A stretch of 64,000 bases of DNA from Miniimonas arenae (GTDB lineage: Bacteria > Actinomycetota > Actinomycetes > Actinomycetales > Beutenbergiaceae). Both the position numbers and the translations under genes were made by a program. How positions within the stretch are numbered: position 1 is the first letter of the stretch; the number at the start of each line of letters is the position of its first letter. Where the stretch lies: the NCBI RefSeq assembly GCF_006351005.1, contig NZ_VENP01000001.1, forward strand, positions 1 to 64,000. Reading direction: 5' to 3'. The notes beneath the pieces are model-generated. The model saw nothing but the letters and a program-made list of their open reading frames with translations. It did no database searches and had not been told where the DNA came from. Below are positions 19,881 to 36,427 of this stretch, piece after piece.

Positions 19881-19910
19881 ACGGCCCGTCCCCCGAGGGG
19901 GACGGGCCGT
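19881..19910 (-). terminator. rplT terminator
   Basis: A 14-bp perfect stem (ACGGCCCGTCCCCC at 19881-19894 with GGGGGACGGGCCGT at 19897-19910) lies just past the rplT stop. On the minus strand it is followed by TTTCTCGTG, so it best serves infC-rpmI-rplT, but it can also stop the convergent VOC transcript. Confidence 0.88.
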
Positions 19911-19926: not shown

Positions 19927-20310
19927 TCAGGCCGCCTTGGGGGCGTTGACGTCCTCGGGGAGCGCCTTCTTGGCCAGCTCCACGAGCGCCGTGAACGCCG
20001 CGGGGTCGTTGACCGCGAGCTCGGCGAGCATGCGACGGTCGACCTCGATCTCCGCGGCCTTGAGGCCCTGGATGAACCGGTTGTACGTGATGCCGTTGGC
20101 GCGGGCCGCGGCGTTCACACGCTGGATCCACAGGCGACGGAAGTCACCCTTGCGGGCGCGACGGTCGCGGTAGGCGTAGCCGAGGGAGTGGGTGACCTGC
20201 TCCTTGGCCTTGCGATACAGACGCGAGCGCTGCCCGCGGTAGCCGGACGCCTGCTCGAGAACGACCCGGCGCTTCTTGTGGGCGTTGACCGCCCGCTTCA
20301 CGCGTGCCAC
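19927..20310 (-). CDS. rplT: 50S ribosomal protein L20
   Basis: Early-assembly 23S rRNA-binding protein. The basic N-terminal tail ([14 protein letters not shown]) and the core [19 protein letters not shown] identify it. In several bacteria L20 also represses its own operon by binding leader RNA. The GTG at 20310 has AAGGAGA 5 bases upstream. Length (127 aa) is usual. It is the last gene of infC-rpmI-rplT, ending at the strong hairpin below. Confidence 0.98.
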
Positions 20311-20339: not shown

Positions 20340-20534
20340 TCAGCGGCCGAGCAGCTTCTTGATCTTGCGGACGTCGGCGCTGTCCACGACCTGGTCGGAG
20401 GACAGGCGGCGCTTGCGGGTGGAGGTCTTGTGCTCGTTGAGGTGACGGATGCCCGTCTGCTCGCGCATGATCTTGCCGCTCCCGGTCACCCGGAAACGCT
20501 TCTTGGCACCGGAGTGCGTCTTGTTCTTCGGCAT
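20340..20534 (-). CDS. rpmI: 50S ribosomal protein L35
   Basis: A 64-aa basic ribosomal protein starting [14 protein letters not shown] and ending in KIKKLLGR, both typical. The ATG at 20534 is preceded by GAGGAT; the longer frame upstream is not L35-like. It lies 29 nt before rplT in the same operon. Confidence 0.98.
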
Positions 20535-20625: not shown

Positions 20626-21636
20626 TCAGGACTTGGGTCGCGGTGCGGGCCGCGCGGGACGCGGTGCACCGGGCTTGGGAGCCGCGGGCCGGGGGGCCTG
20701 CGGCCGGGGTGCGGCCGACGACGTCGTGCTCGCCGTGCCAGCCTGCTCGCTCGGCCGGGAGGCGGGTCGCGGAGCCGGACGCGGCGTGGCGGGACGCGGG
20801 GCCGCGGGGGCCTTCGCGGCCGGGGCGCTCGCCTTGGCCGGCGCGCTGACCGGTGCGGGCTCGCTCACCTCGGCGACCTCCTCGACGTCGTCGCCCTGCG
20901 GCGCGACGGCCTCGGCCCGGGTCTCGGCCGGCGCCGCGGGAGCCTCGACCGTCGCGGGCGTGGCGGTCTCGGCGACCTGCTCGGCCGCCGGGGCCTCGAC
21001 GACGGACTCGGGCTCGGGTGCCGGCGCCGCCGCTGCGCTCCGGTCGCCGTCCGCGGGCGACGCCACCGGGGCGTCCTCGCGGGTGCGCTCGGCGCGAGCC
21101 TTGCGCTGCTCCTGGATGGCGTCGGCCTTCCGCTTGGTCGGCGCGATGACCATCGTCATGTTTCGCCCGTCCAGCCGCGGCGAGGACTCCACCGTGCCCA
21201 GCTCGGAGACGTCCTCGGCGAGCCGCTGCAGCAGGCGCATGCCCATCTCCGGACGGGACTGCTCCCGGCCGCGGAACATGATCATGACCTTCACCTTGTC
21301 GCCGGCCTTGAGGAACCGCTCGACGTGGCCCTTCTTGGTGCCGTAGTCGTGCGGGTCGATCTTGAGCCGGAAACGGATCTCCTTCAGCACGGTGTTGGCC
21401 TGGTTGCGGCGCGCGTCGCGCGCCTTCTGGGCCGTCTCGTACTTGAACTTCCCGAAGTCCATGAGCTTGCAGACCGGGGGGCGCGCGTCCGGCGCGACCT
21501 CGACCAGGTCGAGGTCCGCCTCCTCGGCGAGGCGAAGCGCGTCCTCGACGCGAACGATGCCGACCTGCTCACCGTTCGGGCCGACCAGACGTACCTCGGG
21601 CACGCGGATCCGCTCGTTGATGCGGGGCTCGCTGAT
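20626..21636 (-). CDS. infC: translation initiation factor IF-3 with ATC start
   Basis: Binds the 30S subunit and checks start-codon pairing. The conserved N terminus [19 protein letters not shown] begins at an ATC codon (21634-21636) with AAGGAG 6 bases upstream. No ATG or GTG fits, and non-canonical starts are the known basis of IF3 self-regulation in other bacteria. The N and C domains (about residues 1-180) include [11 protein letters not shown] and [12 protein letters not shown] tail of about 155 residues rich in Ala, Pro and Glu follows and ends in a basic Pro/Arg stretch; extended IF3 tails are known in actinobacteria. Length is 336 aa. Confidence 0.95.
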
Positions 21637-21682
21637 GCTGTGCTCCTTGGGTCTCTCGTCGGATGACCTCACGCACAGGAAA

Positions 21683-21712
21683 GGCCCCCGCACGTGAGCG
21701 CATGCGGAGGCC
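21683..21712 (-). promoter_or_regulatory. terminator-like hairpin in the infC leader
   Basis: On the minus strand, GGCCTCCGCA pairs with TGCGGGGGCC (10 bp with one U-G pair, 10-nt loop) and is followed by TTTCCTGTG. It lies about 46 nt before the infC ATC and roughly 185 nt into the inferred transcript. This is the shape of an intrinsic terminator or attenuator in the leader. I cannot tell whether it is conditional. Confidence 0.55.
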
Positions 21713-21901
21713 TCGAGCTCGGCGCACCGGGGTGCACCTGCTGGGGTGCGCGACGGCGTCGCGAACCCCGACCGAGGACCTGCTCCCCGTCGCCGCGAGG
21801 GCCGGGAGCGAGGTGGGAGGATCTCCACTTGCGCACCGATCTCGCCGTCGTGCGCCGCCGGACGGCGGGCATGAGTGAGCGTGACCGGTTGGTCGACATG
21901 C

Positions 21902-21908
21902 AAGACTA
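21902..21908. promoter_or_regulatory. overlapping divergent -10 elements (infC and DUF1844 gene)
   Basis: The minus-strand hexamer TAGTCT (21903-21908) lies upstream of infC, giving a leader of about 260 nt. The plus-strand hexamer AAGACT (21902-21907) lies 7 bases before the DUF1844 GTG. The AGACT core is shared. The plus-strand match to TANNNT is weaker, so that half is tentative. Confidence 0.45.
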
Positions 21909-21914
21909 CCAGAC

Positions 21915-35790: not shown

Positions 35791-36427
35791 GCCCGAGCGA
35801 GTCCAGCCACGCGGCGACGGCGCGCCGACCACCGAGCCGCAGGAACGTCGGGTCACCCACCCGCGGGGCGAACCGGGTCCGGGTCGGACCGTGCTGGGTC
35901 CAGCCCCACAGCAGGATGTTCTCCTCCGGGTCCCGCCGGATCCAGTCCGCGGGGTTCTCCCGGTTGCCGTGCCACAGCTCCTCGCGCAGCACGCCACGCC
36001 GCACGGTCCGGCGCACCAGCCGGGACATCACGAGCGCACGCGAGTGGTCCAGCCACACCACGAGGTCGGCTCCCCCGGGTGTGCCCGGCTCGAGGAGACC
36101 CTCGAGCCTCGTGCGCCAGTTCCCGTCCGCGACCCAGCCGTCCGGGTGCGCCGCGACAAACTCCCGCACCAGTGCACGCGCCTCCTCGACGTCCCGGAAC
36201 GTCCAGTCCCGGTCCCAGAACACGGCGTCGAGCTCGAGGTGCGCGACGCCGAGCCGACGCGCAGCCTCGGCGGCGAGCGTCGTCTTGCCGGCACCGGAGA
36301 CCCCCACGATCCGCACCCGTCGCTTGCGGGCGGGCTCGCCGTCGGGCGTCGGGGCCGAGCGGTCCGGCCGAGGAGGCGGCGACGCCGGAACCGGCTCCGG
36401 CGACGGGTGCGCAGCGGACTCGTCCAC
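35765..36427 (-). CDS. P-loop nucleotide kinase-like protein
   Basis: A 220-aa protein with Walker [20 protein letters not shown] near residue 42, a [13 protein letters not shown] segment, [10 protein letters not shown] and [21 protein letters not shown]. This matches small adenylate-kinase-like or topology-modulation (FlaR-like) proteins; the substrate is unknown. The GTG at 36427 lies 6 bases after CAGGAT and fits the leaderless layout. The frame opens further upstream at 36481, but that would overlap the divergent S4 gene. Residues 1-35 are Pro-rich. Confidence 0.8.

Follow-up and report, generated by a model that had tools for sequence, protein, structure and literature searches.

A probable terminator/antiterminator RNA switch in the infC-rpmI-rplT leader of Actinomycetes

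The 5' leader of the infC-rpmI-rplT operon in Miniimonas arenae, a high-GC actinomycete, is probably a cis-acting RNA switch built from a terminator and an antiterminator. This confidence applies to the switch and not to bL20 as its ligand. The DNA that we analyzed (the window) comprises the 64,000 nucleotides at positions 1 to 64,000 of contig NZ_VENP01000001.1 (RefSeq assembly GCF_006351005.1), and the features of the operon and its leader are listed in Table 1. The anatomy of the leader, its conservation, its covariation, and its place before infC come from this analysis. Our best reading is that the leader is an uncatalogued terminator/antiterminator RNA of infC-rpmI-rplT.

Table 1. Features of the infC operon and its leader (window positions)
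Feature	Positions	Strand	Description or basis
Extended -10 TGGTAGTCT	21903..21911	-	-10 box TAGTCT 21908-21903
Junction (sensor) domain, helices P1-P4	21770..21894	-	P1 = 21894-21891 with 21773-21770
Helix P2 (ACCGGUC...GAUCGGU and apical part)	21835..21889	-	MFE; 5/5 modelled pairs vary on both sides
Switch strand GCGCAAGUGGAG	21823..21834	-	Junction CAAG and 5' side of P3; alternatively antiterminator 5' strand
Helix P3 (GGAG-AUC-CUCC)	21816..21826	-	MFE; 86.7% of cells paired in relatives
Helix P4 (ACCU...AGGU, GCUCCC...GGGAGC)	21778..21814	-	MFE; 81.6% of cells paired in relatives
Hairpin P5, between sensor and terminator	21743..21769	-	MFE only
Hairpin P6, between sensor and terminator	21716..21742	-	MFE only
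Terminator hairpin (predicted)	21675..21714	-	5' arm 21714-21701, loop 21700-21695, 3' arm 21694-21681, U-rich tail 21682-21675
Antiterminator 3' strand CUCCGCAUGCGC	21698..21709	-	Pairs with 21834-21823; permutations and covariation
Reciprocal hairpin P8	21669..21697	-	Terminator 3' arm and RNA after U-tract; energy model, permutations
Shine-Dalgarno AAGGAG	21643..21648	-	Read directly from sequence
infC (IF3), long C-terminal extension	20626..21636	-	TIGR00168 E 1.2e-64 for the ORF from ATC
rpmI (bL35)	20340..20534	-	TIGR00001 E 7.7e-25
rplT (bL20), candidate ligand	19927..20310	-	TIGR01032 E 8.7e-44
Terminator-like hairpin 3' of rplT	19881..19910	-	Top terminator score in window

We searched 23 other genomes of the family for relatives of this locus. 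By protein search, the closest named locus was that of Occultella (92% in IF3); Georgenia was among those that followed. rpmI and rplT lie downstream of infC in 76 of the 80 named loci, and three of the four exceptions are contig ends. One Streptosporangiaceae MAG contig (L083, 494-1548) carries two convergent IF3 frames and no rpmI or rplT match, reflecting either a misassembly or a duplication. In the window, the hairpin at 19881-19910 directly follows rplT, is the strongest terminator-like hairpin, and scores on both strands; it is probably the end of the operon. Past its core, the window IF3 carries an Ala/Pro-rich C-terminal extension of ~165 residues (20626-21123, minus strand), and the open-frame lengths of IF3 vary widely among family relatives.

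The original prediction placed the IF3 start at ATC after AAGGAG, and the coordinates agree: the codon occupies 21636-21634 and the Shine-Dalgarno sequence 21648-21643 (both minus strand), with a spacing of 6 nt. Among 104 loci, for which start codons were assigned by position after the Shine-Dalgarno sequence and not by protein data, 99 start at ATC, 2 at ATT, and 2 at GTG, and 1 is unclear. The codon had also been called the classic self-regulated choice. A non-canonical start is indeed kept, but it is AUC here and AUU in E. coli. In Lentzea (L084, L099, and L102), the AUC start is apparently lost, with GTG in L099 and L102 and an unclear start in L084. These loci retain the leader element, as covariance model R1 (described below) matches L084 and L099, and L102 was parsed by motif scan.

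Streptomyces infC is reported to start with ATC, and IF3 to autoregulate its own translation (PMC5472188). According to the same source, IF3 of S. coelicolor represses the non-canonical GTC start of sigR, by experiment, and infC has several promoters there, one of them SigR-dependent (PMC5472188). Because these promoters could bypass the leader, it need not govern all S. coelicolor transcripts. The translational autocontrol originally proposed for infC gains comparative support from the Streptomyces report and from the AUC or AUU starts in 101 of 104 loci. The best reading of the window operon would combine AUC-based IF3 autocontrol with an attenuator.

A TANNNT box lies 6-12 nt before P1 in 57 of the 63 loci with a parsed P1 (window included), with TG upstream of the box in all 57. 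The background is TANNNT in 5.3% of 24-nt windows across the 600 nt upstream of infC. Because this extended -10 is conserved just before P1, we predict that transcription starts near 21896, at or just before P1. The leader of ~260 nt suggested earlier, with TAGTCT as its -10 box, is thus upheld as a prediction. If its GTG start is correct, a DUF1844 gene on the opposite strand (PF08899; 21915-22325, plus strand) begins 6 nt past the -10 box of infC. Its promoter would have to sit inside the infC leader DNA, and the DUF1844 and infC transcripts may overlap in antisense.

The hairpin before infC had been described as a 10-bp stem about 46 nt before the start. The stem is real and the distance is correct when measured from the end of the 10-bp stem (21683), but the helix comprises 14 pairs, not 10, and the end of this longer stem lies 44 nt from the start. 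It has a z score of -3.4, none of 200 shuffles is as stable, and it ranks fourth of the 21 hairpins that score at least 30 on either strand of the window. Its U-tract is TTTCCTGT (21682-21675). A standard terminator scan (at least 5 T in 8) does not call the hairpin (21714-21681) because the tract is U-poor. Longer U-tracts occur in some relatives, namely GGGGCAUUUUUUGUG in L143 and L144 and one U more in L145. Few intrinsic terminators are reportedly predicted in Actinobacteria (PMC2965389). The original prediction proposed conservation of the structure in relatives as a check, and the hairpin does recur: at a loose threshold (4 T or more among the 9 nt that follow), it is found in 97 of 104 loci, and in 90 of 104 it passes tighter limits on position and score in a locus that also has the junction anchor (counts without a shuffled control). 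As in an attenuator, the hairpin, a predicted terminator that the standard scan does not call, lies between the promoter and the first gene.

The terminator is half of a larger structure. The original prediction had seen this half and missed the antiterminator, the junction domain P1-P4, and how widely that domain is distributed. Side-by-side reading of 32 leaders, combined with motif scans, revealed the block GACC - P2 - CAAGN - P3 - CACC... P4 ...GGU - GGUC. We built a covariance model (R1) from 22 aligned sequences, none of them from the family genomes (L002-L025) or from the Occultella or Georgenia loci. The better of the two R1 matches in the window lies at 21896-21768 (E 2.1e-5), and 21 of the 25 modelled pairs are standard in the window leader. 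The other match (35825-35887, plus strand; 21 bits, E 0.052; GACC...CACCCG...CGGGUCC...GGUC) is probably due to chance. When given 100 of the 105 loci (L001, L064, L100, L102, and L104 were omitted), R1 recovered 90, comprising 21 of 22 seeds and 69 of 78 others; one seed (L062) and nine other loci were not recovered. L001, which is identical to L002, was excluded throughout, and L064 has 95 nt upstream and no anchor.

The R1 alignment was fitted to the structure, and its counts are therefore biased in favor of the structure. In this alignment, 86.9% of cells were paired, compared with 74.4% when shuffled, and the covariation score was 0.346 compared with 0.143. Twenty of the 25 modelled pairs change on both sides; in P4, 8 of 11 modelled pairs do so. 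All five measures of pairing in the junction domain exceeded those of 500 out of 500 shuffles and of all six slid controls, and all five fell when the partners were slid by 1-3 columns. By eye only, the 3' strand of P1 possibly pairs with the sequence just before the terminator.

The sequence of the 12-nt switch strand (CAAG plus the 5' side of P3) complements that of the terminator 5' arm and loop. We examined this pairing and P8 in the 90 loci with an anchor and a filtered terminator, or in 69 representatives, using permutations that ignore relatedness, so that their values are not strict probabilities. Across the 90 loci, the mean pairing energy was -15.1 kcal/mol for matched strands versus -12.6 kcal/mol between species, and none of 5,000 permutations reached the observed sum. 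With the 69 representatives, the antiterminator pairing was reached in 0 of 20,000 permutations. Of the downstream windows tried, the terminator 5' half was the best partner in 55 of the 69; it was not in the other 14, nor in 10 of the 25 representatives of a second set, and L084, L086, L105, L139, and L140 are among the loci concerned.

The second set, which was not used to form the idea, consisted of 44 loci from 41 genomes (three were fetched twice) and was reduced to 25 representatives. L150 was dropped for want of a terminator, the L131 row was kept though the wrong hairpin was taken, and the switch segment was 3 nt longer than in the test of 69 representatives. The antiterminator pairing was reached in 1 of 20,000 permutations, and the terminator 5' half was the best partner in 15 of 25. 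For the reciprocal hairpin P8, the corresponding counts were 0 of 20,000 permutations with the 69 representatives and 31 of 20,000 with the second set.

With terminators aligned blind to their partner and the best-pairing register chosen, both-sided covariation of the antiterminator was 4798 versus 1739 ± 303 (0/500). Two bases before CAAG, the pair is C-G in 21 sequences and U-A in 21; three bases before, it is G-C in 31 and A-U in 7. Of the 14 columns, three are mostly unpaired (5%, 33%, and 47%), and in the mycobacteria-like leaders L139 and L140 the antiterminator is weak. In our view, the both-sided changes and the second set make a stronger argument for the predicted antiterminator than the permutation values. 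The leader has an antiterminator that is mutually exclusive with the terminator and that covaries, as an attenuator would. Attenuation, which the original prediction suggested for this operon, is supported at the level of sequence comparison: the hairpin recurs, and its arms join mutually exclusive covarying helices.

To describe the energetics, we folded the window leader and 43 representatives among the 63 loci with a parsed P1; the leader-ORF counts given below refer to the same 43. Folded freely, the window leader has the OFF state (P1-P6 plus the terminator) as its MFE, at -136.0 kcal/mol; forced into the antiterminated (ON) state, it reaches -134.3 kcal/mol. In the full leader, the model gives a probability of 0.94 to the terminator pair and 0.06 to the antiterminator. 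In the MFE folds of window transcripts, 11 antiterminator pairs are present at 203-211 nt and none at 213 and 215 nt. Among the representatives, the antiterminator formed in 39 of 43 truncated leaders and the terminator in 37 of 43 full leaders. P1, with 4 bp, is present in 9 of 43 full-length MFE folds. A helix that is conserved yet this weak in the model would fit one stabilized by a bound protein.

A refined covariance model (R2) gave one match in the window genome (E 2.7e-6), and we took the next (E 0.885) as chance. Scanning the class with R2 yielded a single match in each of 190 of the 296 genomes, representing 88 of 115 genera. IF3 was found in 288 of the 296 genomes, including 98 of the 106 without an R2 match; the stricter filters lose weak matches. 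These misses cluster by lineage. In one family of small genomes (f33), 0 of 27 genomes matched, and in another family (f25) 3 of 26 did, with IF3 present in 52 of these 53; the misses in the two families reflect either loss or divergence. In all 89 genomes among the matches listed, the RNA lies 69-241 nt upstream of infC on the same strand, and IF3 lies beside the match in 30 of 30 loci fetched from the class scan. A phylum-wide scan with stricter filters matched 13 of 198 genomes, all 13 in the class of the window. Several genomes of Streptomyces-like size carry the element, as do L139 and L140, in which IF3 begins like the mycobacterial protein. A search of open-access literature gave no description of this leader RNA.

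We propose that the switch sets whether RNA polymerase stops after ~220 nt or enters the operon. Here we infer termination, the ligand, the direction of the response, and the dependence on IF3. Transcription would start near 21896, directly at P1. The switch strand GCGCAAGUGGAG (21834-21823) would have two options as the leader emerges: remaining in the P1-P4 junction or pairing with CUCCGCAUGCGC (21709-21698). In the OFF state, the junction would hold the switch strand, allowing the terminator to form and transcription to stop at ~21675-21682. In the ON state, the switch strand would pair with the terminator 5' arm, the 3' arm would fold into P8, and polymerase would read through. The effector would most likely be a protein of the operon that, in excess, binds and stabilizes the P1-P4 junction. 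Translation of read-through transcripts would begin at AUC, where IF3 itself would set a second brake. bL20 is the most likely effector, with about an even chance, on the strength of the Bacillus precedent and the gene content (rpmI and rplT downstream); IF3 comes next, and its candidacy stems from the codon choice.

That the effector is IF3, or free 30S bound by IF3, is unlikely; it would imply double control, with termination at the junction and initiation at AUC. The element lies before the first gene, infC, in 89 of 89 genomes among the matches listed, AUC or AUU starts predominate (101 of 104 loci), and the two halves of the bL20 motif were not found together in any of 69 leaders, all of which suit IF3. 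However, rpmI and rplT also follow infC in 76 of the 80 named loci, so that position favors neither candidate; the precedent from Bacillus is L20; and IF3 is not known to bind an mRNA leader. More broadly, the leader could be a class-wide uncatalogued RNA of Actinomycetes in which something other than bL20 binds the junction, be it a small molecule, IF3, or an IF3-30S state, a reading that is possible but doubtful. The switch might also dispense with a specific ligand and respond kinetically, independent of protein, to RNA polymerase speed, NTPs, Mg2+, or temperature. The modelled ON and OFF states lie only 1.7 kcal/mol apart, and the antiterminator disappears from the MFE when the terminator 3' arm completes, as such an attenuator would have it. 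We consider it quite unlikely, given that the junction sequence (GACC/GGUC, CAAG, and CACC) is conserved beyond the need of a bare competing hairpin.

Two further explanations were considered. Control could be translational only, the hairpin serving as an mRNA-stability or processing element with no regulated termination, as the U-poor tract and the negative standard scan might suggest. The mutually exclusive covarying helices joined by both arms, the longer U-tracts of relatives (GGGGCAUUUUUUGUG in L143 and L144), and the high 5' UTR/CDS read ratio reported for M. tuberculosis (PMC3207917) make this highly improbable. Alternatively, a translated upstream ORF could set the fold. An ATG followed by at least 8 codons occurs in 25 of 43 leaders, and an ATG or GTG preceded by a Shine-Dalgarno sequence in 20 of 43. 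The start positions are scattered, however, the commonest being common to 3 of the 43 leaders; the lengths from P1 to the terminator show no phase (11, 17, and 15 leaders per class); the window ATG (21899) precedes the predicted transcription start; and the covariation points to RNA pairing. With no conserved upstream ORF in the 43 leaders, we rejected leader-peptide attenuation, to which we give almost no credence.

A terminator/antiterminator switch in this leader would matter in several ways. How E. coli and Bacillus control the IF3-L35-L20 operon is textbook knowledge; for actinomycetes, the open-access literature that we searched yielded the long mycobacterial UTR and the ATC start codon but no mechanism. 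A covarying switch beside infC in about two-thirds of the class genomes scanned would offer a concrete mechanism, as well as a covariance model for annotation, and would add another bacterial group that controls the same operon with a different RNA. The switch might bear on the excess of reads in the M. tuberculosis infC 5' UTR, with the antiterminator weak in the two mycobacteria-like leaders. If the effector were not bL20, two RNA checkpoints would read initiation capacity, one at transcription elongation and one at the AUC start, and this two-checkpoint control would extend to Streptomyces-like and mycobacteria-like genomes.

Several known systems resemble the leader in part. E. coli infC has an AUU start and is under IF3 autocontrol. 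The leader resembles it in having a non-canonical start, AUC or AUU in 101 of 104 loci, and differs in using AUC rather than AUU and in having a predicted attenuator upstream. In M. tuberculosis, infC is reported to have a 326-nt 5' UTR, with a ratio of UTR to CDS reads of 2.6 in exponential and 4.9 in stationary phase, and alignment suggested regulation shared with infA (PMC3207917). The excess of UTR reads would fit premature termination. The passages of that description that we compared contain no structure, terminator, or antiterminator. In our scans, R2 found a single match per matched genome, at infC in 89 of 89 among the matches listed, and none was seen at infA. For M. marinum and M. 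bovis, infC is reported to be one of the genes whose start sites are shared and that carry a TT at -35 (PMC4128351). The rplJL leader of Bacillus subtilis, an L10(L12)4 attenuator in which an anti-antiterminator is reported to promote termination (PMC10931766), is likewise an attenuator of a ribosomal protein operon, but the operon, the protein, and the RNA are different.

The closest parallel is the Firmicutes L20_leader (RF00558), the infC-rpmI-rplT leader of Bacillus subtilis, which shares the operon, the location in the infC 5' leader, and a helical junction near the 5' end. It also shares an intrinsic terminator, which is only predicted here. In Bacillus, L20 binding is reported to stabilize the terminator of the infC leader (PMC6097659; PMC10931766). 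The leader described here differs from L20_leader in its P1-P4 junction with a CAAG core, its own antiterminator, and the lack of a covariance-model match. In Rfam 15, no family reached its gathering score in the window or in 20 relatives; when the threshold was relaxed, four weak matches appeared, far under the gathering scores and none of them to L20_leader. The L20_leader model had no match at E <= 0.001 in the whole window genome, and as a control it matched in B. subtilis and three other controls. The bL20 site motif, made up of two rRNA-like halves (H40/H41), was also looked for, and both halves together occurred in 0 of 69 leaders.

Mimicry of the 23S bL20 site was considered and gained no support. 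The switch-strand consensus GTGTGCAAGTGGAG is 2 edits from the adjoining 23S segment, a likeness not beyond chance (5 of 60 random 23S sequences do equally well), and the window's own variant matches elsewhere. In L138, the 23S segment GUGUGCUAAGUGGGA, presumably located beside H40/H41 and next to the bL20 site, resembles the switch strand GUGUGCAAGUGGAG, again not beyond chance (5/60). Because the L20_leader model fails to match and the L20 site motif was not found in 69 leaders, we describe the leader as separate. Judged from sequence, its mode of action would be that of the L20 leader of Firmicutes; no membership in that family was detectable, and we therefore regard it as a separate leader of the same operon.
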